A program made the translations under genes and the position numbers. Below the pieces are notes generated by a model. It saw nothing but the letters and a program-made list of their open reading frames with translations. It was not told the origin of the DNA and did no database searches. Of a DNA stretch of 64,000 nt, positions 33,961-58,140 are shown piece by piece; position 1 is the first letter of the stretch, and each line of letters starts with the position of its first letter. Source of the stretch: Actomonas aquatica. Its GTDB lineage: Bacteria; Verrucomicrobiota; Verrucomicrobiia; Opitutales; Opitutaceae. The DNA is taken from contig NZ_CP139781.1 of assembly GCF_019679435.2 (NCBI RefSeq), positions 5,328,001-5,392,000 of the forward strand, read 5' to 3'.

Positions 33961-34262
33961 GTAGCTGCGCCGTAAAGTAGCTGCGCTTGAGCCGGAGGCG
34001 AAAGCGTGGCCGCGGGTGGAGTGGCCATCCCACGGGGCCGCGTTGTCGCTTCGCTCCAACGCAGCTACGGTTGTGCAGGTGGGGGTGGTGGGTAGCTGCG
34101 CTTGAGCCGGAGGCGAAAGCGTGGCCGCGGGTGGAGTGGCCATCCCACGGGGCCACGTTGTCGCTTCGCTCCAACGCAGCTACGGTTGTGCGGGTGGATG
34201 GTGGTGGGTAGTTGCGCTTGAGCCGAAGGCGAAAGCGTGGCCTCCAGTGGAGAGGCTACGGT
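33961..34262. repeat. Tandem array of ~115-bp palindromic extragenic repeats
   Basis: Two near-identical units start at 33977 and 34092, and a shortened, diverged third unit starts at 34208. A stub lies at 33961. Each full unit is an imperfect palindrome whose ends are GTAGCTGCG and CGCAGCTAC, with GTGGCC/GGCCAC pairs inside, so it could fold into a long cruciform or RNA hairpin. It fills the gap between the convergent lptG and 585-residue genes. No open frame is supported. Size and symmetry fit a REP/MITE-type element. Confidence 0.85.
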
Positions 34263-44995: not shown

Positions 44996-45085
44996 ATGCA
45001 TCTTTCTCATGAATTAAACTACACCACGCGTGCCGCAGCGGTCGTGGTGGAGGTCGCCAACCCGGAGGTCGCGCATGCGTATTGA
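44996..45085 (+). CDS. Possible 29-aa leader ORF overlapping mpgS start
   Basis: A small frame starts at ATG 44996 (MHLSHELNYTTRAAAVVVEV) with GGAG two bases upstream and ends at TGA 45083-45085. It overlaps the mpgS start by 11 bp in another frame. It may couple translation to mpgS or be chance; the spacing of its ribosome site is poor. Confidence 0.3.
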   Translation: MHLSHELNYTTRAAAVVVEVANPEVAHAY

Positions 45086-46343
45086 GTCGCCGCGTGAGTT
45101 TGAACGCTTGGGGGCCGTGCGCATTTATGGCCTGCAGAAAGTGTATGAGTTGGATGCCGGTCCGGAGAGCGGCTCCCCCGAAGGCGGAGAGGACTCGGTG
45201 GTGCGCCGCGTTTCGTCGGAGGCGCTGCACGAGATCGAGAGCCAGATGGCGATCGTGGTGCCGGTGCGCAACGAGCGTTTGAAGCTCATCGAAGGCGTGC
45301 TGGTGGGTATCCCGCACGACTGTCTGGTGATTGTGGTCTCCAACAGCCCGCGAGCGCCGGTGGACAAATTTTTCCTCGAGCAGGAGGCGATCAACAACTT
45401 CTGCCGCTTCACCCGCAAGCAGGTGATGGTGGTGCACCAGAAGGATCCGGCGATCGCGGCGGCCTTCTCGGCGGCGGGTTATCACGACATCCTCGACGAC
45501 AAGGAGCTGGTGCGCAACGGCAAGGCCGAGGGCATGATCATGGGGTCGCTCCTGGCCAAGATGGCGGGCCGCAAATACGTGGGATTTGTCGACAGCGACA
45601 ACTACTTCCCGGGCGCGGTGAACGAGTATGTGAAGGAGTATGCGGCGGGCTTCTGTCTGAACCCGAGCGATTACGCCATGGTGCGCATCTCCTGGCACTC
45701 CAAACCCAAGGTGGTGGAGAACTCCCTCTACTTCGCGAAGTGGGGTCGCAGTTCCCGTCACTCCAACATGTTCCTTAACAAGTTGGTGGGCCATCACACC
45801 GGCTTCGAGACCGAGATCGTGAAGACCGGCAACGCCGGCGAGCACGCGCTCACGACCGATCTCGCGATGAGCATCGATTACGCGACCGGTTACGCGGTCG
45901 AGACCTTCCACTACGTCCACCTGCTCGAAAAATATGCCGGCATCCTCACCGAGGGTGAAGGCGTGGGCGAAGACATGCATCGCATGGTCAAGATCAGTCA
46001 GATCGAGTCGCGCAACCCGCACTTGCATGAAGTGAAGGGGGACGAACACGTCGAAGACATGATCGCGGCCTCGCTGAGCACGATCTACCACTCCAAGCTC
46101 TGCCCGGAATCACTCCGCGAGGAAATCGAGCAGGACCTGCAGCGGCGCAACTACCTCAAGGAAGGGGAGCAACTCGCACCGATGCGGATCTACAAGAGTC
46201 TGGATCGGATGAATTATGACCAGTTCTTCGCGACGTCGGAGGCCGCGATTCGTGCCGCTGGCGGCACCTCGCTGACGGTCCCGGTGGCGTCGTCGAAGCC
46301 GAGCCCCGTCGAGCCGACTCCCGCGGAGACCGCCGAAGACTGA
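45075..46343 (+). CDS. mpgS: Mannosyl-3-phosphoglycerate synthase
   Basis: The 422-residue GT55 enzyme makes mannosyl-3-phosphoglycerate from GDP-mannose and 3-phosphoglycerate. It opens with MRIESPREFERLGAVRIYGL, the family's usual N-terminus. MAIVVPVRNERLKLIEGVL marks the GT-A start, YVGFVDSDNYFPGAVNEYV the DxD-like metal site, and FAKWGRSSRHSNMFLN a conserved loop. GGAGG lies six bases upstream of the start. The phosphatase follows 30 bp downstream, so this is the two-step mannosylglycerate pathway. The product is a compatible solute for salt or heat stress. Confidence 0.95.
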   Translation: MRIESPREFERLGAVRIYGLQKVYELDAGPESGSPEGGEDSVVRRVSSEALHEIESQMAIVVPVRNERLKLIEGVLVGIPHDCLVIVVSNSPRAPVDKFFLEQEAINNFCRFTRKQVMVVHQKDPAIAAAFSAAGYHDILDDKELVRNGKAEGMIMGSLLAKMAGRKYVGFVDSDNYFPGAVNEYVKEYAAGFCLNPSDYAMVRISWHSKPKVVENSLYFAKWGRSSRHSNMFLNKLVGHHTGFETEIVKTGNAGEHALTTDLAMSIDYATGYAVETFHYVHLLEKYAGILTEGEGVGEDMHRMVKISQIESRNPHLHEVKGDEHVEDMIAASLSTIYHSKLCPESLREEIEQDLQRRNYLKEGEQLAPMRIYKSLDRMNYDQFFATSEAAIRAAGGTSLTVPVASSKPSPVEPTPAETAED

Positions 46344-46373
46344 CCTGCCAAACGGCTGACTGCATCTGCCCTC

Positions 46374-47282
46374 ATGCCCCTAAGTTCCTTGTTGGATCCC
46401 GCCAGCCCCTGGCTGGTGTTCACCGATCTCGATGGCACCCTCTTGGAGTGGTCGTCCTATTCTCCGAAAATCGCGCGACCGGGTTTACTGCGGTTGCGCG
46501 AGCGGGGCGTGCCGGTCGTGTTTTGCTCTTCCAAAACCGCCACTGAGCAGCGCGCGCTCCGTCAGGAGCTCGGCATCCGTGCGATCCCGGCGATCGTGGA
46601 AAACGGTGCGGCCATCATCGTGCCGGAGTCGACCGGTCTGCCGACGGCGGGCTGGGAGCCGGCACCGGGCGAACCCGGTCGTCGCGCCTTGGCGCTCGGT
46701 TTGCCGGTCGCAGAAATCCAAACGCGGCTGGACCGGGTGCGGGCGCGCACGGGGCAGGCCTTGCGTGGATATCGCGACATCAGCGACGCCGATCTGGCGG
46801 AGCTCACGGGGCTTTCGGTGGAGTCGGCGGCGCGCGCGCGGCAGCGTGATTTCAGTGAGACGCTGGTGGAGGTGCTCGATGATGAGACGTGGGCGCAGCT
46901 CGATGCCGAGTTTGCCCGCGAAGGTCTGGAGTGTCGTCATGGCGGGCGCTTTCACACCGTGACCGGCGCGGGCACGGACAAAGGTCGGGCGGTGCGTCAG
47001 GTCATCGAGCTGTATGAGAGTGCCTACGGGCGTTCGGTGCAGTCGGTGGGACTGGGCGACAGTGCCAACGACAAGCCGCTGCTTGAGGCGGTGGACCATG
47101 CCTTTTTATTGGCTTTGGAAAACGGGTCCTGGGCGGATCTGGCCACCGATGGTCTGCATCGAGTGGGAGGCCGCGGACCCTATGGCTGGGTGGAGGTGGT
47201 TGACGGTCTGCTCGACGATGGCACCGACGACACGGTGAAGCAGAAAAGCGAAACGGCCGAGACAGGTTCGGCGGACGTGTGA
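46374..47282 (+). CDS. mpgP: Mannosyl-3-phosphoglycerate phosphatase
   Basis: The 302-residue HAD-superfamily phosphatase has motif I as VFTDLDGTLLEW (Asp18, Asp20). Motif II is near VVFCSSKTA, and motif IV is in SVGLGDSANDKPLLEAVDHA. It removes phosphate from mannosyl-3-phosphoglycerate to give mannosylglycerate. The cap domain is of the Cof/MPGP type (GYRDISDADLAELTGLS). It is cotranscribed with mpgS. Confidence 0.93.
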   Translation: MPLSSLLDPASPWLVFTDLDGTLLEWSSYSPKIARPGLLRLRERGVPVVFCSSKTATEQRALRQELGIRAIPAIVENGAAIIVPESTGLPTAGWEPAPGEPGRRALALGLPVAEIQTRLDRVRARTGQALRGYRDISDADLAELTGLSVESAARARQRDFSETLVEVLDDETWAQLDAEFAREGLECRHGGRFHTVTGAGTDKGRAVRQVIELYESAYGRSVQSVGLGDSANDKPLLEAVDHAFLLALENGSWADLATDGLHRVGGRGPYGWVEVVDGLLDDGTDDTVKQKSETAETGSADV

Positions 47283-47335: not shown

Positions 47336-47815
47336 ATGGAGTCCCACGAACTACTCAAGGAACTACTCAAAAAAACGAGTGCGAAGCAGGTCTGCTCCGA
47401 CTTGGGGCTGTCGCTTTCCTTGATCTACAAGTGGGCCGAGCCGCCGTCCGAGAACGCCGGCAGTGGCGCGGTCAATCCGCTCGACCGGGTGGAGAAACTG
47501 ATGCGAACCACCGGCGATGTGCGCATCGCCCAATGGGTGGCCGAGCGCGCCGGGGGCTTCTTCATTCACAACCCGAAGGGCGTCAGCCAGACGTCCGAAC
47601 TCATCCCCTCGACCAACGCGATCGTGCAGCAGTTTGCCGACATGTTGGGGGTGATTGCGACGGCGGCGGCCGATCAAAAAATCACCGACGATGAGGCCCG
47701 CAAAATTCGCGCACAGTGGGAGAGCCTGAAGTCGGTGACCGAAGGATTTGTGCAGGCGGCCGAGCAGGGGAATTTCTCCGGCATTCGCGCCGAGTTGGTC
47801 GAGCAGCCGCATTGA
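47336..47815 (+). CDS. Phage CII-like regulatory protein
   Basis: The 159-residue protein has an N-terminal helix-turn-helix (SAKQVCSDLGLSLSLIYKWA) and NPLDRVEKLMRTTGDVRIAQ, then WVAERAGGFFIHNP. This layout resembles the CII/CP76-type regulators (PF06892) of P2-like phages and some chromosomes. The C-terminal half is helical. No other phage gene is nearby, so a domesticated regulator is more likely than a prophage remnant. A 53-bp gap separates it from mpgP; cotranscription is possible. Confidence 0.7.
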   Translation: MESHELLKELLKKTSAKQVCSDLGLSLSLIYKWAEPPSENAGSGAVNPLDRVEKLMRTTGDVRIAQWVAERAGGFFIHNPKGVSQTSELIPSTNAIVQQFADMLGVIATAAADQKITDDEARKIRAQWESLKSVTEGFVQAAEQGNFSGIRAELVEQPH

Positions 47816-47867: not shown

Positions 47868-50189
47868 CTAGCGCTGGGCGTGTTTGAGCGCCTTCTGCAT
47901 GAAGCTGGCGAGGCCTTGGAAGGAGAAGGGCTTTTCGAGGAACCATTTCACGCCGAGGGCGCGGGCGGTATCGATGTCGCGCGCGTTCATGAAGCCGGTG
48001 GCGATGATGAGCGGCAGACCCGGGCGCAGCTCAAAGACGCGGCGAGCGATGTCGACGCCGGTGATACCGCCCATGGTGAGGTCGGTGACGACGATATCAA
48101 ACTGGCGGGGCGCGGCGGTGAAACGTTCGAGGGCTTTGCTGGAAAGGGTGAAGGCTTCGACCTCGTAGCCGAGGCGCTTGATCATGCGGCTGCCGATGTT
48201 GACGACCGACTCTTCGTCGTCGACCAGCAGGACGCGTTCACCGTTGCCCTTGGGCAGATCGGTGGGCGTGACTGCCACGTCGAGGGAGGCCGGATCGACG
48301 GTGGGGAAATAGACGCGGAAGGAGGTGCCGATGCCCGGTTCACTTTCGCAGACGATGGCACCGTCGTGATCCTGCACGATGCCGTGCACGACGGCGAGGC
48401 CCAGGCCGGTGCCCTCGTTGGACGGTTTGGTGGTGAAAAACGGTTCGAAGATGCGTTCGCGGGTGGCGGCATCCATGCCGGTGCCTGTATCCGAAACGCT
48501 GAGACAGAGGGTCTGGCGGTTGGCGAGCTGCGGGTAGCTGGCGTAGAGGGAGGGCTCGGCCTCGCCCTTGGTGAGGCGCAGGGTGAGCAGACCGCCGTGG
48601 GCGTTCATGGCGTGGCCGGCGTTGGTGCCCAGGTTCATGATGACCTGGTGCAGTTGGGTGCCATCGCAGAGAATGGGCGGCGCGGTCTCGTCGATCTCGA
48701 TCTTAAAATCGATGGTGGCCGGCAGGGAGGCGCGCAGCAGGCGCACGGCATCATTGATGATGGGCGATACCTGGCCGAGCGCGCGTTGTTGTTCGCGGCG
48801 GCGGCTGAAGGTGAGGATCTGGCTGACGAGGTCGCGGGCGCGTTCGCTGGCCTCGAGGGCTCCGGCCAATTCTTCGCGGATGGGGGAGTCGTCGGGGGTC
48901 TCCAACTGCACCAACTGGAGGTAGCCGAAGATGGCGGTGAGGATGTTGTTAAAATCGTGAGCGATGCCGCCGGCGAGGGTGCCGATAGCTTCCATCTTCT
49001 GCGCTTGGCGGAGTTGTTGCTCGAGTTGGGCGCGATCAGCATCGGCCTTGAGGGAGGCGGTGATGTCACGGGAGATCACCACGGCGCGGCGGGAGCCGTC
49101 CGGCGCGCGGTGCACCTGCACGGCGGAGTCGAGGGTGAGCCAGTGCTCCTTGCGATGGCGGATGCGGAGGCGGAGCTGCGCGCGGTGATCGAGCTGCGAA
49201 AGCAGCGCATCAATGTCGTCGATGTCGTCGGGGTGGGCGAGGTCGTGGATACGTTTGCCCTCCATTTCGTCGGGCAGGTAGCCGGTGACCGCCTGGTGAT
49301 TGGGGCTCACGTAGCACAATACGCCTTGGTCATCCAATTCGCAGATGAGGTCGTGGGAGTTCTCCACCAACAGGCGGTAGCGGGCCTCGCTCTCGCGCAC
49401 ACTTTCTTCGGCGGCTTTGCGATGTGAGATGTCCTGCATCATGACGAGCAGGCGGTTTTTACCTTCAAATTCGAAGGCGGAGAAGGAAACCAGCAGGGTG
49501 CAGTTGGGGGCGCCGGGTAAGTCGACCTCTCGCTCGATGGTGTGGCGCGAGCCGCTGAACAGCGCGTCACCGACGAGACGGCGGCGCTGGGGCAGGTCGG
49601 ACCACGCACCGAAGTCGATGGTGCGTTGGCCGATGATCTCGTCGCGGGTTTTGTTGGCTAGACGCTCGGCGGCGGGGTTGGCGTCGACGATGGCACCGTC
49701 CTCGATCTCGGTCACGATGGTGGCGATCGGGCTGGCGTTGAAGAGGGTGGCGAAGCGGCGCTTGCTGGCGGCGACCTGGCGCAGGTCGGCATCGTGCTGT
49801 TGGCGATAGCACTCGTAACGAATCGCGCGAAGAATGGCGGAACCCACCTCTTCCGGATCCTCCCCCCGCACCATGACGGCAATGCCAGTGTCGAGAACCT
49901 GCTTGGTGGCGGTCGTGGTTACGCGTTCGGCGAGCACAATGATGGGCGGATTACCTTGGCAGGCGGTGCGCAATTGGTCGATGGCCGTGGCGTCCAGTTC
50001 GATCAGATCCTGCTCGATCAGGACGGCGCGCCAGATGCCGCGACGGGGCAGGGTTTCGAGCTGCTGCGGGTCTGTCAGATGGTCGAATTCGACCTCACAA
50101 CCCGCCGCCGACAGCGTCTCCGCGTAGGCGGGAACGTGGGAGGCTTGCGGCGCAAAAATGAGAACACGAAATGGAGTCCAGGCAGACAT
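47868..50189 (-). CDS. Hybrid sensor histidine kinase (pseudo-receiver, two PAS, HK, receiver)
   Basis: The 773-residue cytoplasmic kinase has, in order, an N-terminal receiver-like domain (about 5-130), two PAS domains (about 150-270 and 280-400) and HisKA with GGIAHDFNNILTAIFGY. HATPase_c follows with NLGTNAGHAM, SVSDTGTGMD and GTGLGLAVVHG, then a C-terminal receiver (VVTDLTMGGITG, LEKPFSF). The N-terminal receiver lacks the usual phospho-aspartate region (VLIEQDLIEL), so it is probably not phosphorylated. No transmembrane segment is seen. The signal and cognate regulator are unknown. It is downstream of the 42-bp repeat copy. Confidence 0.92.
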   Translation of the reverse strand: MSAWTPFRVLIFAPQASHVPAYAETLSAAGCEVEFDHLTDPQQLETLPRRGIWRAVLIEQDLIELDATAIDQLRTACQGNPPIIVLAERVTTTATKQVLDTGIAVMVRGEDPEEVGSAILRAIRYECYRQQHDADLRQVAASKRRFATLFNASPIATIVTEIEDGAIVDANPAAERLANKTRDEIIGQRTIDFGAWSDLPQRRRLVGDALFSGSRHTIEREVDLPGAPNCTLLVSFSAFEFEGKNRLLVMMQDISHRKAAEESVRESEARYRLLVENSHDLICELDDQGVLCYVSPNHQAVTGYLPDEMEGKRIHDLAHPDDIDDIDALLSQLDHRAQLRLRIRHRKEHWLTLDSAVQVHRAPDGSRRAVVISRDITASLKADADRAQLEQQLRQAQKMEAIGTLAGGIAHDFNNILTAIFGYLQLVQLETPDDSPIREELAGALEASERARDLVSQILTFSRRREQQRALGQVSPIINDAVRLLRASLPATIDFKIEIDETAPPILCDGTQLHQVIMNLGTNAGHAMNAHGGLLTLRLTKGEAEPSLYASYPQLANRQTLCLSVSDTGTGMDAATRERIFEPFFTTKPSNEGTGLGLAVVHGIVQDHDGAIVCESEPGIGTSFRVYFPTVDPASLDVAVTPTDLPKGNGERVLLVDDEESVVNIGSRMIKRLGYEVEAFTLSSKALERFTAAPRQFDIVVTDLTMGGITGVDIARRVFELRPGLPLIIATGFMNARDIDTARALGVKWFLEKPFSFQGLASFMQKALKHAQR

Positions 50190-50295
50190 AAACGAAGCTG
50201 ATCCGACACCACTGACTAAGGGGTGCCAGAGAGCCTCCAAAGTCTTCCCCCTACGGCAACCGATTTTAACTAAGTAATATTTGTCAGTCCGATTT

Positions 50296-50337
50296 CTCGC
50301 GGTGCGTCGGAATGAACTCCTGTTCGACGGCGCGAGC
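50296..50337. repeat. 42-bp direct repeat, distal copy
   Basis: Identical to 55412-55453 over 42 bp. On the minus strand it encodes LARAVEQEFIPTHRE followed by KSD and a stop, a displaced copy of the C-terminal codons of the DUF885 gene. It is not part of a gene here. Confidence 0.9.
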
Positions 50338-50387
50338 CAGGTGCGGGTGAGCAGGGCCGTGACGCGGTGCAGGCTCGGGGCTCTGCG

Positions 50388-51350
50388 TCAGAAACGCCAC
50401 TGGGCGGATGCGGCAAGTCCGAGATCCCACTTCTGGAAATCCGGCACCAAGGGGTCGCTGCTCTCCCGATGATCGAAGCCGACTATGAGGCGCATTTCGG
50501 CGTGTCGGCCGAGGGGGCAGGTGGCCGCGAGGCGCGCGCCGACCTGCTGATCGAAACGGTCGCGTTCGGCGGCAGTGTAGTGGCTCGCGAGGTAGCGGAG
50601 GGAAGGGCGCAGGTGCCAGCGGGTGCCGATCGTCTGATCGAGGAGAACGGAGATGCTTTGTTCGATACGGTTGTTCCAGTCGTGCGGTAACAAACCGAAG
50701 GAGTCAGTGGCGGAAAACCGCATGGCACCATCGCCGCCCAGCACGAGGGTGCGTCCGGCCCCGAGGGGTTTTTGCCAGAACAGCGCCCACTCGGTGGCGA
50801 GCTCCTCGTAGAAGGTGTGATCGGTGGCGTTGGCGCGCAGCGTGGAGGCGCGGGCCGTCACCGCTGCATACCAGGGGCCGCTTTGCCAATCGAGGCGGGC
50901 GTGCAGGCCGCCAAGGGCGAAGTTGTTGCGATCGATTTCGACCAGATTGACCTTTTCATTTTCGCCCGCGAGGAAGCCGTAGCGGTAGGCCTGCGCCTGC
51001 GCGCCGACCTGCCAGCCGAGCGTGCCGCCCCAATGGGCATGGCGGGCCGAGTCTCGGTTCAGGCCGACCTGGGCCACGGTGAGGGTCGATGTCGCGGGAT
51101 CGGTCTCGACGAGGGTGACATTGGACGTGGCGGTGATTTCGAGATCAGCCCAGAGCTGCCACCGATGCGGTTTGGGTTGGGCGATCAAAAGGTATTGAGG
51201 GCCGACGTCGTCGAGCTCGCCGACGAAGAGCGACGGGACCGTTGCTTGGCCGGATGCGGTCGCGGATTGCGCCCGGGAGGCGGGGACGAGGAGGACCGGA
51301 AGAAAGATGGCGACAATGAGACGCCAATTGAGAGGGCTGCGGTGCTTCAT
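50388..51350 (-). CDS. Outer-membrane beta-barrel-like protein
   Basis: The 320-residue product has a signal peptide (LIVAIFLPVLLVPASRA). Alternating beta segments follow (HWGGTLGWQVGAQAQAYRYG, WYAAVTARASTLRA, HLRPSLRYLASHYTA), and the last residue is phenylalanine after SAQWR, the typical Omp85/BAM-recognised C-terminal signature. It is likely an outer-membrane barrel. It overlaps the FecR gene by four bases and is the last gene of the cyclase operon. Ligand and function are unknown. Confidence 0.75.
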   Translation of the reverse strand: MKHRSPLNWRLIVAIFLPVLLVPASRAQSATASGQATVPSLFVGELDDVGPQYLLIAQPKPHRWQLWADLEITATSNVTLVETDPATSTLTVAQVGLNRDSARHAHWGGTLGWQVGAQAQAYRYGFLAGENEKVNLVEIDRNNFALGGLHARLDWQSGPWYAAVTARASTLRANATDHTFYEELATEWALFWQKPLGAGRTLVLGGDGAMRFSATDSFGLLPHDWNNRIEQSISVLLDQTIGTRWHLRPSLRYLASHYTAAERDRFDQQVGARLAATCPLGRHAEMRLIVGFDHRESSDPLVPDFQKWDLGLAASAQWRF

Positions 51351-53203
51351 CCGTTGCCGGGATTTGGAGTGGTGATCGTGATGGTCGGGGCGGCGCGGCC
51401 GGTGCCGCCGGCGGCGGTCGAAACGTGGTCCTGAGCGGGCGCGCCGTCATAGGTGACGTCGCGCACGAAGTTGACGAAGCCCGGCTGCACGGTGGCGTTG
51501 GTATTGGGATTGGGAGCGAGCTGGCCGGTCTCGCTGACGAGGCGCACCACGGAGTCGGCGGGGAACGCGACATTCGTCAGGGCGATGGTGCGGGCGCCGA
51601 GGTTGATGGTGGCAAAGCCGGCGAAATCGAGCAGGCGCGCCTCGATGAGGTTGACCGCGGTGGTTTGAAACACGGCTTCGGGGGCCACGACCTGCCAAGT
51701 CAGCCCGTCGAGCCGGGCGGTGTCGCCGGAGTCGGCCCAGAAATCGCCCTCCAGCAGGAAGTGGGTGTCGCGCAATGCCAGGTCGGCGGCGAGCGCGGCG
51801 AAGGTGCCACCCTGCGAGCGTATTTCGCTTCCGGATACATCGAGCAGCCCGTGCGGAGCATCGATGTTGACGGCGCTGGGCACCACGGAGTCGGCGCCGA
51901 TGAGATCGCCGGCGTGCAGCAACTCGTCGGAGATGATGAGATCACCGCCGTGAGACTGGAGGAGCAGACCGCCGCGGGTGTTGCTCACGGAGCCACCGGC
52001 GAGGAGCAGCGTGAGGTCGGTGTCGACGTAGAAGGTAGTGGGGGTGGCTTCGACCGGAAAGTCGGCGATGATGGCGGCCCCGGCCGGCACGATGACCTGC
52101 GGCGAAAACAGCCGCAGGTAGTTCACGTCGGCGAGGTCGGTGAAGGTAGTGGATCCGGCGAAGGCGATATACTCCTTGCCGACAAAGTTGAAGGCCGACA
52201 CTCCGGCGGCGGCGAGGCTGAGCTCCGGCGTGGTGATGTCGACCCGCAGACCGAGCAGGCCGGTAAGCAGGGTGTCGGACTCGAGGTTGAGGAACTCACT
52301 TTCGCTCGCGGGAATGAGAAACTCGGAGCGAAAGACGCGGTTGTTGGGCAATGTCGGCGAGTCGAGCACGACGGCGGAATTGAGCGCGAGTCGCTGGTGT
52401 TGATTGAAGTCGCCCACGAGGTTGTCGTCGGCGTCGGGTCCGGCGGCTTCGATGCCGTTGACCTGCGTGTCGCTGGTGGCGCTGTAAACGAGGAAGCCGG
52501 TGGCGAGGTAGTGGCCCTGACCGACGGCGCGTTGTTGGTCGGCGATGGCGCGATCGATCTTCGGTTGGGACGCGAGTGGACGTTTGAAGCCTTTGACCAA
52601 CTTTGAGTCCTTTACTTGGCGTTCGAGGTCGAAGTGCAAGGTGGGGCCGGGGGTGCCGGTGCCGAGTCCGCCGGGGCGCACAAAGAGCATTTGGCCGGCG
52701 TCGAGTTCGCGCCGGGCGCCGGAGTTGAAATCCACTTGGGCGCGTCCTTCGAGCACCAGCAGTTTGAAACCGCCGTCGGTGGTGGCCGCGGCGATGATGG
52801 TGGTGCCGAGAACCGAGGCCGAAGCGGAGGGCGATTTGATGGTGCCTCCGCCGCGGCCGCTAGGGGAGTGGAACAGCACGCTGCCGCGATCGAGCTGCAT
52901 GGCGCGGGTGGCGCGGTCGAAGGCGAACAAGGTGTTGGAGCCGAGGCGTGTGATGGTGCCGTCGGGGGCCTGCAACTCAGCGCGGGAGGCCCGGCCGGTG
53001 CGCAGGCGGTCGGGGGCGTGCAAGTGATCCTGCAAGCGGGCGGGCGCGGCGTGGCCGTCGGGCATCGTGATGAGGGTGACGTCGTTGACGACTTCGATGA
53101 CTTCGGACTCCTCCAAGGCGCGGGGGGCGGCGATGGTTTGGGTGGCGGCCAGCACCAGGAGGCCGGTAAGGCGGGGCAGCACAGTTTTCATGAGGCGGAT
53201 CAT
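51347..53203 (-). CDS. FecR-domain secreted protein with beta-helix-like C-terminus
   Basis: The 618-residue product has a signal peptide (MKTVLPRLTGLLVLAATQTI). A FecR domain spans about residues 35-165 (DRLRTGRASRAELQAPDGTI, GSVLFHSPSGRGGGTIKSPS, GTTIIAAATT). FecR domains normally pass an outer-membrane signal to an anti-sigma or enzyme partner. The rest is beta-rich with repeated strand motifs, including a filament-like stretch with IDAPHGLLDVSGSEIRSQGG. It overlaps the cyclase gene by ATGA (53200-53203) and the barrel gene by ATGA (51347-51350). I chose ATG 53203 because of that overlap. Confidence 0.85.
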   Translation of the reverse strand: MIRLMKTVLPRLTGLLVLAATQTIAAPRALEESEVIEVVNDVTLITMPDGHAAPARLQDHLHAPDRLRTGRASRAELQAPDGTITRLGSNTLFAFDRATRAMQLDRGSVLFHSPSGRGGGTIKSPSASASVLGTTIIAAATTDGGFKLLVLEGRAQVDFNSGARRELDAGQMLFVRPGGLGTGTPGPTLHFDLERQVKDSKLVKGFKRPLASQPKIDRAIADQQRAVGQGHYLATGFLVYSATSDTQVNGIEAAGPDADDNLVGDFNQHQRLALNSAVVLDSPTLPNNRVFRSEFLIPASESEFLNLESDTLLTGLLGLRVDITTPELSLAAAGVSAFNFVGKEYIAFAGSTTFTDLADVNYLRLFSPQVIVPAGAAIIADFPVEATPTTFYVDTDLTLLLAGGSVSNTRGGLLLQSHGGDLIISDELLHAGDLIGADSVVPSAVNIDAPHGLLDVSGSEIRSQGGTFAALAADLALRDTHFLLEGDFWADSGDTARLDGLTWQVVAPEAVFQTTAVNLIEARLLDFAGFATINLGARTIALTNVAFPADSVVRLVSETGQLAPNPNTNATVQPGFVNFVRDVTYDGAPAQDHVSTAAGGTGRAAPTITITTPNPGNG

Positions 53204-55290
53204 TTGGCGGTCAGATCGAGCGGGGCGGTCGGTGCGGCGTCGGCGCACAGCTGTTGGCGACGGGTGAAATAAGGGCGGAGGTCATGGGCTCCGGCGGCTG
53301 CGGTTGCGGCCTCGGCCCAAGCCACGCCAGCCTCCGCGGTGCGGCCCTCCTGCCAGGCTTGGTGAGCGCGCAGCGCGGCCGGCCACCAGGGCGGCGACGG
53401 AGCGGCCAGAGGACCGATTGGAATGAAGAGTTCCAGGGCGGCTCGCTTGCCTTTGAGCCGGGCGGGACCGACGGGCAGAAAGCGGTGGCGGTCGGCGAGG
53501 AGTTCAACGATGCGCGGACTCACCAACACATCTGTGTCGAGCGGGCGGTTGGCGGTCTCGAGGCGCGAGGCGGTGTTCACTGCGTCACCCATGACGGTGA
53601 ACTCCATGCGGCGCGGGTGGCCCACGTTGCCAAGCATGACTGCGCCGTGGTGCAGGCCGATGGCCATGCGCAGTCGCGGGTGGTCGGGTATGGTGGCCCA
53701 CTCCGCGTTGAGGCGAGCCAACGCCGCCTGCATGGCCAGCGCAGCGGCGACGGCACGGGCACTGTCCTCAACGGGACCTTCGCTGCGCGTGTCACCCCAA
53801 ACCGCGAGCACGGCATCACCGATGTATTTCTGCAGTGTGCCGCCGTGAGTCAGCACGCAGTCGACGATGGCGGCGAAGTAGGCATTGAGCTGGGCGACGA
53901 AGGCTGCGGGTTCGGCGTCTTCGACCCAGGCGGTGAAACCGCGAAGGTCGGCGAAGAGCACAGTCACGTCACGCCGCTCGCCGCGCAAGGAAGCGGAAAA
54001 GGCGTCGGGTTGATCGGCGATGAGGGAGGCGATCTCTTCGGAGACGTAGCGTCCCAGCATGCGGCGCAGTCGGCGGCGTTCGCGTTGTTCGCTCACGAGC
54101 TGGGCACCGATGCCGAGCGCGGCGCCACCGGTCCAGGCTCCGGCGGGAGCGACGCAGGGCAGGACTAGATTGGTGGCGGCAAAAGCGACGAAGCAGAGCA
54201 GCACCCAAAGCAGCAGACCGGCGATTGCCCAGGTGACTTGCAGGCTGGCGCGGCGGGGTCGCAGCGTAACCAGCAGGGCGATGAGGGCGAGGCTGCTCAC
54301 CAGCGCCACGGTGGTCCAGCGGGGCGGCTCGACGGGGTGGCGGCGATCGAGGAAGGTGGCAAACGCGGCGGCCTGAGCCTGCACGCCGGGCATGCGGCCA
54401 AGCGGAGTGAGGTGCACGTCTTTGAAGCGGACTTCGGAAAGCGGGCCGATCCACACGACGCGATCGCGAAATCGATTGTCGTGATCGAGCCACGCGCTGT
54501 TCCACCGATCCGGCAGGAAGAGGTCTTCGATGGGCACCACCGGAACGTCGGCTGCGGGATGACGGAAGTCGATTCGGCCGTGGGGCATGGCGGGGGTGCT
54601 CGGGTCGAGGGCGCGAGCGGCGGCGAGGGCGAGTGACGGTGCGATGCCGGCGGGATCGGACGGCAGACCGAGCAGGGCGGCGGCGTCCAGGGTGCTTTCG
54701 CTGTGGCGCAATACGCCGTCGGGATCGGGCCAGACGTTGGCGAAGCCGTTGAAGGCACCGGCGTCGAGGAGCGGCAATGAAGGTTCGAGGAGCACGGCGG
54801 TGCCTTCGCCAGCGAGGGAGTGATCAACCTGCCACAGCGAGGCCAGCACCACCGGGGCACCGGGTTCGGCAAGGGCTTCGGCGAAGTCGGCGTCACCGGG
54901 ATTGGGGCCGGCGAAAACGATATCGAAAACGATCAGACGCGCACCGGCGGCCCGCAGGCGTCGCACCACGGCGGCGTAAACGCGGCGATTCCATGGCCAG
55001 TTTCCTGCCATTTCCCCGAGGATCGGATCCTCCGCCACCGACTCGGGCGCGCGCTCGGCGAGCGTGAAGCTACTGTCGGAGAGGCCGACGACCACCGGGG
55101 GTGGGGCCGGTTCGGGCAGCAGTTTTTGGCGCAGGCTGAAACGCTGGTCGATGGCGATGCCTTCGAGCGCTTCGATCCAACTCCAGGTCCCCAGCCAGAC
55201 ACTCGCAAGAATCAGCAGGCCCACGCCCAGTGCGAGGCGGCGCGGGGTGAAGGAACGAGAGCGTGGGGAGCTGGAAGAGACGCCGAACAT
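53200..55290 (-). CDS. CHASE2-domain adenylate/guanylate cyclase
   Basis: The 696-residue membrane protein has TM1 at about 19-38 and a periplasmic CHASE2 sensor at about 45-320 (APPPVVVGLSDSSF, ARLIVFDIVFAGPN, RFRDRVVWIGPLSEV). Three membrane segments follow at about 328-398, then a class III cyclase domain at about 435-640. Metal aspartates are in VLFADLRGF (Asp448) and YIGDAV (Asp492). Lys488 in LQKYIGD and the later GDAVNTASRLE favour ATP over GTP, so cAMP is the likely product. It is the first gene of the cyclase-FecR-barrel operon. Upstream lie three 11-bp direct repeats. Confidence 0.93.
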   Translation of the reverse strand: MFGVSSSSPRSRSFTPRRLALGVGLLILASVWLGTWSWIEALEGIAIDQRFSLRQKLLPEPAPPPVVVGLSDSSFTLAERAPESVAEDPILGEMAGNWPWNRRVYAAVVRRLRAAGARLIVFDIVFAGPNPGDADFAEALAEPGAPVVLASLWQVDHSLAGEGTAVLLEPSLPLLDAGAFNGFANVWPDPDGVLRHSESTLDAAALLGLPSDPAGIAPSLALAAARALDPSTPAMPHGRIDFRHPAADVPVVPIEDLFLPDRWNSAWLDHDNRFRDRVVWIGPLSEVRFKDVHLTPLGRMPGVQAQAAAFATFLDRRHPVEPPRWTTVALVSSLALIALLVTLRPRRASLQVTWAIAGLLLWVLLCFVAFAATNLVLPCVAPAGAWTGGAALGIGAQLVSEQRERRRLRRMLGRYVSEEIASLIADQPDAFSASLRGERRDVTVLFADLRGFTAWVEDAEPAAFVAQLNAYFAAIVDCVLTHGGTLQKYIGDAVLAVWGDTRSEGPVEDSARAVAAALAMQAALARLNAEWATIPDHPRLRMAIGLHHGAVMLGNVGHPRRMEFTVMGDAVNTASRLETANRPLDTDVLVSPRIVELLADRHRFLPVGPARLKGKRAALELFIPIGPLAAPSPPWWPAALRAHQAWQEGRTAEAGVAWAEAATAAAGAHDLRPYFTRRQQLCADAAPTAPLDLTAK

Positions 55291-55330
55291 GACGGCCGGG
55301 GAGAACCGGCCGACGATTCAACTCCGCTTA

Positions 55331-55363
55331 CATGAACGTCGCATGAGCGTGGCATGAGAAGTT
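55331..55363. promoter_or_regulatory. Three 11-bp direct repeats upstream of the cyclase operon (Pho-box-like)
   Basis: CATGAACGTCG, CATGAGCGTGG and CATGAGAAGTT follow each other without gaps, 41-73 bp before the cyclase start. On the minus strand they read as CTCATG/TTCATG every 11 bp. PhoB/OmpR-family regulators bind 11-bp direct repeats of the (T)GTCAT type, so this is a candidate site. Confidence 0.45.
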
Positions 55364-55405
55364 TTTCATAAAACCCCGCGGGAGAACGGAGTGGGGAGGC
55401 TGCCC

Positions 55406-57145
55406 CTAGGGCTCGCGGTGCGTCGGAATGAACTCCTGTTCGACGGCGCGAGCGAGCAGCGCGGGCGGGATGAGGCCCTGCTGAATGAGGAAGTCATTGA
55501 AGGCGAGCCGGTCAAAACGGTCGCCAAGGGCCAGCTCGGTGCGGGTGCGCAGGGCCATGACGCGCAGGTAGCCGTAGAAGTAGGCGGTGGCCTGGCCGGG
55601 GCTGCGGAAGGTGTAGCGGTCGAGCTCCTGTTCGGTCATGGCGTCGGACAGGACGACCTCTTCGCGCAGGATGCGGCCGGCCTCCTCGCGGGTGATTTGG
55701 CCGAGGTTGAGCATGGGATCGAGGAAAGCACGGCTGGCGCGCAGCAGGCGGAACTGCAGGGCGATCATCTGGCCCTCGAGCGGCTCGTAGGGTTTGAGTT
55801 CGGCTTCGGCGTAGAGGGCCCAGCCTTCGACGTTGACGCTGTTGAAGGCGAAGAAGCTGCGAGCGACGGAGACCCCGCGCTCGACCATGGCGGCAAACTG
55901 TAGCTCGTGGCCGGGACGGCCTTCGTGGGCGGTGAGCGTCCAGGTGGCGGCGTTGAAGGTGAAATCGTCGAAGGTCACCGCTTCCTCGCCGTCGAGGGGC
56001 GGGGTGCCGGTGGTGAGCACAAAGGTGCCGCGCTCTTCGCCGGTGCCGCCGGTGAGGGGCGGGGGCTGCATGTGGGGCGCGGGTTGGGCGGCGTTTTCGG
56101 CTTCGGTGGCGAGGCGAATAGCCATGGGACGATCGGGCAGGGTGACGATGCGCTCGCGGCGGATGATGTCCTCGATTTCGGCGATGACGGCTTCATAGGT
56201 CGGGATGACATTGTCGGCCGGAATCTGCTCGGCCTTCAGGCGGCGAATGACCTCGGTGTAGTCGGTGGTGTCCCAACCGCGTTCGGCGGCGATGAGGCCG
56301 GCGAGGGTGCGCATCTCGTTGCGGATCTCGGCGTAGGCGGTCTGGGCGCGCTCGATGAGTTCGGCGGGCGGGATGTCGAGACCGACGCCGCGGAGGTTTT
56401 GAGCGTAAACCGGGGCGGGCAGGCGGGAGTCGGTGCGGGCGGCGGGCAACACGGTTTCGCGCACCCACGCGTCGTGGGCGGTGAGCTCGGTCTCGAGTTG
56501 GTCGAGCAGCGGGTTGACGGCCTCGGCGTCGAAGTCGGGCGCGGCAAAGAGGGCGCGGATGCCAGCGATGAAGCGCGGCGTGTTGGCAAGACCCTGTTCC
56601 AACTGGGAGCGGAAGGGGTGGGTGAGCTCGGGGTCGCTGGCGGCCTCGGCGTAGCGCGCGCGGACCTGCGCGGGGAGGCTCAGGTAGCGTTCGAGGCGAC
56701 TGAGGGCGGCGGGGCGATGCTCGGGGGCGGCGTCGGGTTTGAGCAGACCGAAGAGTCCTTGGTAGATCAGTTGGCTCGCGTTGACGTAGGGCACCATGTG
56801 CTGCTCTTGGATGAGGCTCGTCTCCACGTTTTCGTCGGCGGCGTCGATGAGGATGGCGAGGTCTTCGCGGACGAAGGGGTTTTCCTCGGCTTCGAGGCGG
56901 CGGCGGTAGTGTTCCCGCACGGTCATCACGGCGGAGCGCAGGCGGGCACCGCGGTCGGGGCCGAGATCGATGATCTGATCGTGGTAATCGCCGAGACCGA
57001 GAAAGGTGAGCATCTCGGGCTGGAACTGGCCCAGCACCTCGACGAGGGCTTGGGATTCTTCGTTGCTGCGTTCAACCCACGACGGGGTTTGGGCGGAGAG
57101 CCAACACGTGGTGGCGACGAGGAGGAGCGAGAGACGGCGGATCAT
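55406..57145 (-). CDS. DUF885 family secreted peptidase-like protein
   Basis: The 579-residue product has a signal peptide (LSLLLVATTCWLSAQTPS). It has the DUF885 core with LTAHEGRPGHELQFAAMVER near residue 408, an HExxxGH metal-binding motif. FNSVNVEGWALYAEAELKPY supplies the distal glutamate, and FRSPGQATAYFYGYLRV follows. Family members are zinc-dependent peptidases or carboxypeptidase-like enzymes. The last residues LARAVEQEFIPTHRE lie within the 42-bp direct repeat and end in P and a stop. It is downstream of rph with a 52-bp gap. Length is normal. Confidence 0.88.
   Translation of the reverse strand: MIRRLSLLLVATTCWLSAQTPSWVERSNEESQALVEVLGQFQPEMLTFLGLGDYHDQIIDLGPDRGARLRSAVMTVREHYRRRLEAEENPFVREDLAILIDAADENVETSLIQEQHMVPYVNASQLIYQGLFGLLKPDAAPEHRPAALSRLERYLSLPAQVRARYAEAASDPELTHPFRSQLEQGLANTPRFIAGIRALFAAPDFDAEAVNPLLDQLETELTAHDAWVRETVLPAARTDSRLPAPVYAQNLRGVGLDIPPAELIERAQTAYAEIRNEMRTLAGLIAAERGWDTTDYTEVIRRLKAEQIPADNVIPTYEAVIAEIEDIIRRERIVTLPDRPMAIRLATEAENAAQPAPHMQPPPLTGGTGEERGTFVLTTGTPPLDGEEAVTFDDFTFNAATWTLTAHEGRPGHELQFAAMVERGVSVARSFFAFNSVNVEGWALYAEAELKPYEPLEGQMIALQFRLLRASRAFLDPMLNLGQITREEAGRILREEVVLSDAMTEQELDRYTFRSPGQATAYFYGYLRVMALRTRTELALGDRFDRLAFNDFLIQQGLIPPALLARAVEQEFIPTHREP
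55412..55453. repeat. 42-bp direct repeat, gene-borne copy
   Basis: Identical to 50296-50337. It consists of the last coding codons of the DUF885 gene, six bases before its stop codon ends. The two copies bracket 5.07 kb that holds exactly the cyclase-FecR-barrel operon. Confidence 0.9.
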
Positions 57146-57197: not shown

Positions 57198-57950
57198 TTA
57201 GGATTTGGCCAAGAGGTGTTGGGTCAAAAAGGCGTTTTGAGCGGCGGCGAGTTGCTTGAGACCGCTTTGGGCGAGGCCCAGCAGTTCGCTGAACTGGGCG
57301 GGGGAGAAGGTGGCTTCCTCGCCGCTGCCCTGGACTTCGACAAATTGGCCGGCGCCGGTCATGACGATGTTGGCGTCGACCTCGGCGTCCCGGTCTTCGA
57401 TGTAGGGCAGGTCGAGCAGGGCGGTGCCTTTGACGATGCCGACGGAAACGGCGGCGATCGAGTCCTTGAGCGGGTTTTCCTTGAGGCGGCCGGAGTCGAG
57501 GAGCTTTTGCACGGCGAGGCGCGCGGCGACGTAGGCCCCGGTGATGGAGGCGGTGCGAGTGCCGCCGTCGGCCTGGAGCACGTCACAATCGATCCACAGC
57601 GTGTTGGGTCCAAGTTTCTCCAAATCGACGATGGCGCGCAGGGAGCGACCGATGAGGCGTTGGATCTCGATCGAGCGACCGTCGGCTTTGCCGCGGGAGA
57701 TGTCGCGGGCTTTGCGATCGTGTGTGCTGTAGGGAAGCATTGAATACTCCGCGGTGATCCAGCCGCCGGAGACATTTTGGGCCCGCATCCAACCGGGCAC
57801 TTTGGCTTCGATGGTGGCGCCGCAGATCACGCGGGTGTCGCCGAAGGAAACGAGGACGGAGCCGGTGGCGTGGGGGGCGATGTCGGGTTGGAAAGAAATG
57901 GAGCGCAACTGGTCGGCGGCGCGGCCGTCGGCGCGGGTGAAATTGGACAT
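57198..57950 (-). CDS. rph: Ribonuclease PH
   Basis: The 250-residue phosphorolytic 3'-exoribonuclease matures tRNA 3' ends. It opens with MSNFTRADGRAADQLR, then SVLVSFGDTRVICGATIEAK, SRGKADGRSIEIQRLIGRSL and IDCDVLQADGGTRTASITGA, all family signatures. The phosphate-binding RLIGRSLR region is intact. I chose ATG 57950 over the in-frame start at 57992 because family members begin near this residue. The DUF885 gene follows on the same strand. Confidence 0.97.
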   Translation of the reverse strand: MSNFTRADGRAADQLRSISFQPDIAPHATGSVLVSFGDTRVICGATIEAKVPGWMRAQNVSGGWITAEYSMLPYSTHDRKARDISRGKADGRSIEIQRLIGRSLRAIVDLEKLGPNTLWIDCDVLQADGGTRTASITGAYVAARLAVQKLLDSGRLKENPLKDSIAAVSVGIVKGTALLDLPYIEDRDAEVDANIVMTGAGQFVEVQGSGEEATFSPAQFSELLGLAQSGLKQLAAAQNAFLTQHLLAKS

Positions 57951-58140
57951 GCCGTCACCCCATGGTCCGCGCTGGGGAGTGGCAAGGCGCATTGAGCGGG
58001 ATTGGCCAGTTGCGGTGCGCAGGGGCGAATAGGGGGCAACGATACGAAAATCAGATTTGGGGGCGATTTTTGCTGATAGGGTTTGGGGCCCATCCTTAGT
58101 TTGGTGAAAAATAGTGCGGCAGATCTGGTGGCAGGTTTAC

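Follow-up and report, generated by a model that had tools for sequence, protein, structure and literature searches.

The genomic island SGI1 has been described as integrated at the 3' end of the trmE gene (PMC8409611). When a plasmid bearing a lacZ segment was conjugated in E. coli, 56 of the 60 clones tested were reported to give the PCR product that indicates a lacZ duplication; in 14 sequenced clones 109-950 bp were duplicated, which was assigned to single crossover by a circle from which part of the segment was missing (PMC3240628). For the T6SS loci of Vibrio, homology-facilitated illegitimate recombination has been proposed to account for displaced modules with orphan genes (PMC5361080). 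With respect to the genes treated here, a CHASE2 adenylate cyclase is described in Campylobacterota as clustered with the gene of a FecR-domain outer-membrane protein (PMC9239204), and a FecR-domain gene is listed among the targets of the cAMP regulator Clr in Sinorhizobium meliloti (PMC5498481).

The locus analyzed here belongs to a 64,000-nucleotide stretch of the Actomonas aquatica genome (the window; contig NZ_CP139781.1, positions 5,328,001 to 5,392,000), to which all coordinates refer. It contains an intact gene for a DUF885 protein of 579 aa (55406..57145, minus strand; PF05960, Pfam E 5.6e-80), next to a gene at 57198..57992 (minus strand) that, based on relatives and synteny, we take to be rph, encoding RNase PH. 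As the original prediction had it, a cyclase-FecR-barrel operon (50388-55290) is located between two perfect copies of a 42-bp sequence, a gene-borne one within DUF885 (55412..55453, minus strand) and a distal one (50296..50337, minus strand). Both form an exact direct repeat with 42 of 42 positions identical, far beyond chance, as the longest repeats found in ten simulated 64-kb sequences (second-order Markov) were of 16-19 bp. Among exact direct repeats in the window only one is longer, a local and unrelated repeat of 63 bp (33977-34039 and 34092-34154), which is followed by a 36-bp exact direct repeat with the same 115-bp offset. A search with positions 50250-50450 against the genome, a single contig of 6.1 Mb, returned two matches only, its own site and the DUF885 end. 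The predicted difference in the termini was also found, with the gene-borne copy ending in ...THREP-stop and the distal copy reading ...THREKSD-stop.

The homology extends well beyond the 42 bp. From the base immediately past the barrel stop codon, positions 50296-50387 are collinear with the last 195 bp of DUF885 coding sequence ahead of its final P-stop (55412-55606), and three codons and a stop follow (50284-50295), so that a remnant of the DUF885 3' end occupies 50284..50387 (minus strand), with the distal 42-bp copy as the tip of this pseudogene tail. The alignment consists of six blocks with 89 aligned bases, 85 of them identical; with respect to DUF885, the remnant has lost 22, 82 and 2 bp at three places and gained 2 and 1 bp at two others. 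The part outside the 42-mer, 50338-50387, is collinear with 55454-55606, with deletions, and its local score (25.9) was not reached by any of 2000 dinucleotide shuffles, for which the maximum was 22.7. Within it, a 26-mer (50341-50366) matches the collinear DUF885 site at 24 of 26 positions, the next best place in the window matching at 20 of 26. The two substitutions in this 26-bp block affect an M and an R codon, both of which, as judged by eye, are unchanged across nine aligned orthologues; this points to the distal copy as the relaxed one. By these alignments, the distal copy is the surviving tip of a decaying and partly deleted duplicate of the DUF885 end, and no attachment site. A frame of 140 codons (stop included) over the remnant was given no weight, as it is out of the barrel's own frame. 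The same data leave an assembly artefact or a chance repeat with practically negligible probability: the genome is a single 6.1-Mb contig, the far copy is diverged and deleted, unlike a misassembled duplicate, and simulated repeats reach only 19 bp. The artefact was consequently rejected.

The rph-DUF885 pair is also present at four other loci (L020, L021, L058, L062), a single DUF885 lying beside rph in the congeners G001 and G006, and in the more distant L058 (a Lacunisphaera record) and L062 (an Opitutae record). No operon protein was detected in the DNA examined at the rph-DUF885 loci of these four, nor an extra DUF885 tail or the operon in the 19 kb fetched for G001 and G006, the operon being thus lineage-specific at this site. 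Six further DUF885 loci (Tahibacter, Lysobacteraceae and Rhodanobacteraceae records) carry one DUF885 each and no operon protein, so that all 10 loci in relatives have one DUF885 per locus, one of these loci being cut by a contig end. In the genus, this DUF885 was found in two of the seven congeners, with a third having only a distant one; two congeners are incomplete drafts (G006, 69%; G003, 82%). The G006 orthologue (L021, 10188-11897) has three in-frame stops and looks like a pseudogene, or else reflects draft errors. As an empty-site comparison, G001 and G006 each show one DUF885 end but different genes downstream, gluconate-dehydrogenase-like in G001 and IS-like in G006, as judged by eye. 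The empty order DUF885-kinase was found in no genome, with other genes in that place in G001, and IS-like material in G006, whose kinase is on another contig. The C-terminal ends of DUF885 vary by species (SQQ, SQD, NAK, RKK and RK, compared to REP here and REKSD in the fragment). The proposal that KSD-stop is the older terminus draws support from a K near the end in three non-congeneric orthologues, but the two congeners lack it, so an older age for the fragment's end than for the P-stop end of the gene is plausible but weak.

We propose, with a probability of roughly 55%, that homology-anchored or single-crossover recombination brought the operon to this place and left a second DUF885 3' end, which later decayed. 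A truncated second gene end flanks the segment and the upstream gene is complete, as in partial gene duplications, and one recombination event explains the whole layout of a complete gene with a new end, the operon and the old end. We infer the original gene arrangement, the sequence of events and the route of recombination as follows. The ancestral locus would have been rph-DUF885(...KSD-stop)-histidine kinase, and the resident gene would have recombined with a DNA molecule in which a DUF885 3' segment was attached to the cyclase-FecR-barrel operon. DUF885 homology would have provided the join on the right. On the left, the operon would have been fused, just past the barrel stop codon, to an internal DUF885 position some 195 bp short of where the shared coding sequence ends. 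The molecule may have been a circle with a partial homologous segment, integrated by single crossover, or a linear fragment, taken in by homology-facilitated illegitimate recombination. The upstream gene would have been left complete with a new end (P-stop), with the 3' fragment carrying the old end stranded beyond the operon, where it would have decayed by deletions and substitutions.

The lacZ case, of the single-crossover (Campbell-type) class, is similar in that a duplicated part of a gene end flanks the insert (109-950 bp there, at least 195 bp here), whereas it was laboratory-made and inactivated lacZ, and here the event would be old, the gene is complete, the fragment is decayed and no donor is known (PMC3240628). 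As described, that case shows duplication by single crossover, and the illegitimate route is therefore without direct precedent in it for the duplication seen here. The Vibrio T6SS proposal shares the homologous anchor on one side, the illegitimate join on the other and the old piece stranded downstream, but here the stranded piece is the pseudogene tail of the anchor gene itself and the cargo is a signalling operon (PMC5361080). No intermediate of the recombination event was found, and no donor in which DUF885 adjoins the operon appeared among 12 other operon loci (several with less than 3 kb on one side) and 10 DUF885 loci. Recombination had been named as an alternative in the original prediction, and it fits better than site-specific insertion. 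Direct repeats at gene 3' ends are usually taken for attachment sites, but ordinary recombination can also produce them, and here the sequence beyond the exact match turns out to be an eroding gene tail; the locus is ordinary genome evolution, neatly recorded.

The inclusion in the remnant of coding sequence well upstream of the 42 bp would also be expected if DUF885 had first been duplicated in tandem, with the operon placed between the copies later and the downstream copy losing all but its tail. There are indeed other DUF885 genes in the host genome, with 27-31% identity, though they are too diverged to be the source. We consider this order of events doubtful, as each of the 10 relatives' loci (one cut by a contig end) has one DUF885, two or three events are needed, and the end of the deletion must fall by chance exactly at the barrel stop codon.

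The distribution of the operon was studied with the FecR protein, which at a cut-off of E 0.001 had matches in 35 of the family's 252 genomes. Near full-length proteins were found in 13 of the 252, the window's own included, with E below 1e-190, and the 12 relatives showed 55-65% identity; the remaining 22 of the 35 genomes (best E 7.6e-57, partial) were left out, giving 12 loci besides the window. At all 12 the order cyclase-FecR-barrel is kept, so the operon is stable elsewhere. In the genus, the barrel gene was detected only in the window's own genome (1/8 genomes, 0/7 congeners) and the FecR gene in none of the seven congeners. By tblastn, neither rph, DUF885 nor this kinase was present in the fetched flanks of the 12 loci, with kinase matches under 150 bits ignored; these flanks are short at several loci, under 3 kb on one side (93 bp upstream at L092, about 1.5 kb downstream at L089). 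In up to 2.5 kb on either side, exact repeats shared by the two flanks reached 15 bp at most. A blastn search of the DUF885 3' end against the 12 loci gave only short scattered matches, the best with E 5.6e-4 over 45 bp at L095, and no convincing tail. Neighbours are shared in some lineages, namely among the g41 loci and among G255, G085 and G065, which have a downstream gene in common, and this speaks for a resident chromosomal unit. Searches with FecR as sole query against 72,556 plasmid and 50,697 phage records returned nothing, and no match was confirmed in viral contigs. For the cyclase there are matches to four PHROG families without assigned function (best 1.5e-38), which could speak for phage links, but we take these matches as due to the widespread cyclase domain. 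A conserved three-gene CHASE2-cyclase/FecR/barrel unit is thereby documented, patchy in the family, and no mobile element was found for it.

These results bear on the site-specific integration of a non-autonomous cassette, in which the 42 bp would be attL/attR and an integrase would act in trans. The perfect 42-bp identity at a gene 3' end agrees with it, as does the count of mismatches, 0/42 in the repeat versus 4/47 in the other aligned bases, although this difference is marginal and its hypergeometric p of about 0.07, calculated by hand, is biased by the choice of the longest run. The genome also holds tyrosine-recombinase genes (nine matches over the cut-off), but the nearest PF00589 integrase match is about 268 kb away, in a search confined to this family. 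Moreover, at least 195 bp of coding sequence are covered by the duplication, which has internal deletions and no short defined core, the 12 other operon loci have no flanking repeat above 15 bp, FecR is without match in phages, plasmids and viral contigs, and the cargo is a conserved chromosomal operon. We therefore regard this integration as very unlikely. The attachment-site reading was rejected on the extended homology, the distant PF00589 match, the lack of flanking repeats elsewhere, the absence of tRNA genes from the window and that of FecR from phages and plasmids. Of what had been predicted, the lack of an integrase in the segment is correct (none of its three genes is a recombinase by Pfam), and a duplicated gene end does bracket a segment that is lineage-specific at the site, but neither its site-specific integration nor the attachment-site footprint was sustained; the non-autonomous cassette gave way to a conserved chromosomal operon, and at the 12 loci, several with short flanks, the operon was not seen beside the 42-bp sequence.

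Like SGI1-type islands, the segment is placed at the 3' end of a protein-coding gene, but here there is no integrase, no defined short repeat and no mobility gene among the three genes (PMC8409611). No PF00589 integrase lies in or next to the element, no short defined repeats restore the gene end, and the same element with the same repeat was not seen elsewhere (12 loci, several with short flanks). It is highly improbable that the 42 bp are kept perfect by a trans-acting recombinase that mobilizes signalling operons without integrase by way of gene 3' ends; were this true, the duplication would have been imprecise and wider, which would account for the additional DUF885 homology.

Regarding the history of the operon, the window's copy has a long branch (0.6) in the unrooted operon tree and joins between the groups at an unresolved node, and the rph tree, which leaves out G004 and G145 (no full-length rph match), places the window's genus outside the others. 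G042 groups with the g7 genomes by rph and with G145 by the operon, a conflict that makes some transfer within the family likely. For the window's copy, both an old transfer and vertical descent with losses are possible. Its composition is ordinary, with 33 of 60 windows of 4.9 kb deviating more than the operon, and a recent compositional import was rejected for this reason. The trees, moreover, allow vertical inheritance with loss, so that an import of the operon is no more than possible. A close paralogous operon in the same genome was also rejected as the source, as the other cyclases in this genome (G000) reach at most 39% identity and barrel and FecR were matched once. The typical composition, and an unresolved node compatible with the position of the genus in the rph tree, would suit an operon that is old and vertically inherited at or near the site, with the copy of the DUF885 end pasted beyond it by local rearrangement or gene conversion. 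This is unlikely, since different genes follow the rph-DUF885 block in the two congeners that have it, and none of the seven congeners yielded the barrel gene.

The first gene of the operon (53200..55290, minus strand) encodes a protein of 696 aa with CHASE2 (PF05226, E 3.6e-37) and class III adenylate/guanylate cyclase (PF00211, E 2.8e-21) domains. It carries FADLRGF, KYIGDAV and GDAVNTASR, motifs that presumably hold the usual metal, substrate and catalytic residues, and the cyclase is hence probably active. The second (51347..53206, minus strand) encodes a FecR-domain protein of about 618 aa (PF04773, E 9.3e-13), with a long C-terminal region without Pfam match. The third (50388..51350, minus strand) encodes a putative outer-membrane barrel of 320 aa, without match in Pfam, NCBIfam or PHROGs. 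Outer-membrane barrels often end in F, and F is the last residue in 13 of 13 aligned proteins. The gene contents suggest an envelope-sensing cyclic-nucleotide system. A gene for a CHASE2 and class III cyclase adjoins a FecR-domain gene, as in the clusters described in Campylobacterota, although most of those include a phosphodiesterase and a TPR protein, and here the third gene encodes the putative barrel (PMC9239204).

Upstream of the cyclase gene, three TCATG words with 11-bp spacing are found at 55331..55357 (minus strand), the sole match in the genome at up to one mismatch. This triple resembles a Pho box. No TCATG/CCATG pair with 11-bp spacing was present in the 12 orthologous upstream regions, one of them shortened by a contig end. 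The word A.AT.TGCG or GGAT.TGCG, chosen after looking, appears in 7 of the 12 loci (L087, L088, L093-L097), at most 200 bp from the estimated start of the cyclase gene, and is possibly the operon's usual control site; in the window it is absent from the 300 bp upstream of the cyclase. The cyclase upstream region has its next match in the genome only at E 1.35, and a promoter and terminator scan performed no better than shuffles.

Beside the remnant lies a gene for a PAS hybrid histidine kinase (47868..50240, minus strand), with an orthologue in G006 on another contig. No significant match to the DUF885 tail was obtained upstream of the G006 kinase, the DNA match beginning inside the kinase gene. 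A small gene at 47336-47815, with a signal of CII-like/YmfL-like phage regulators (PHROG 1.7e-12; NCBIfam below the cut-off), is conserved beside the kinase in G006. Adjacent genes of the mannosyl-3-phosphoglycerate synthase and phosphatase families (osmolyte synthesis) are found at 45030-47282.
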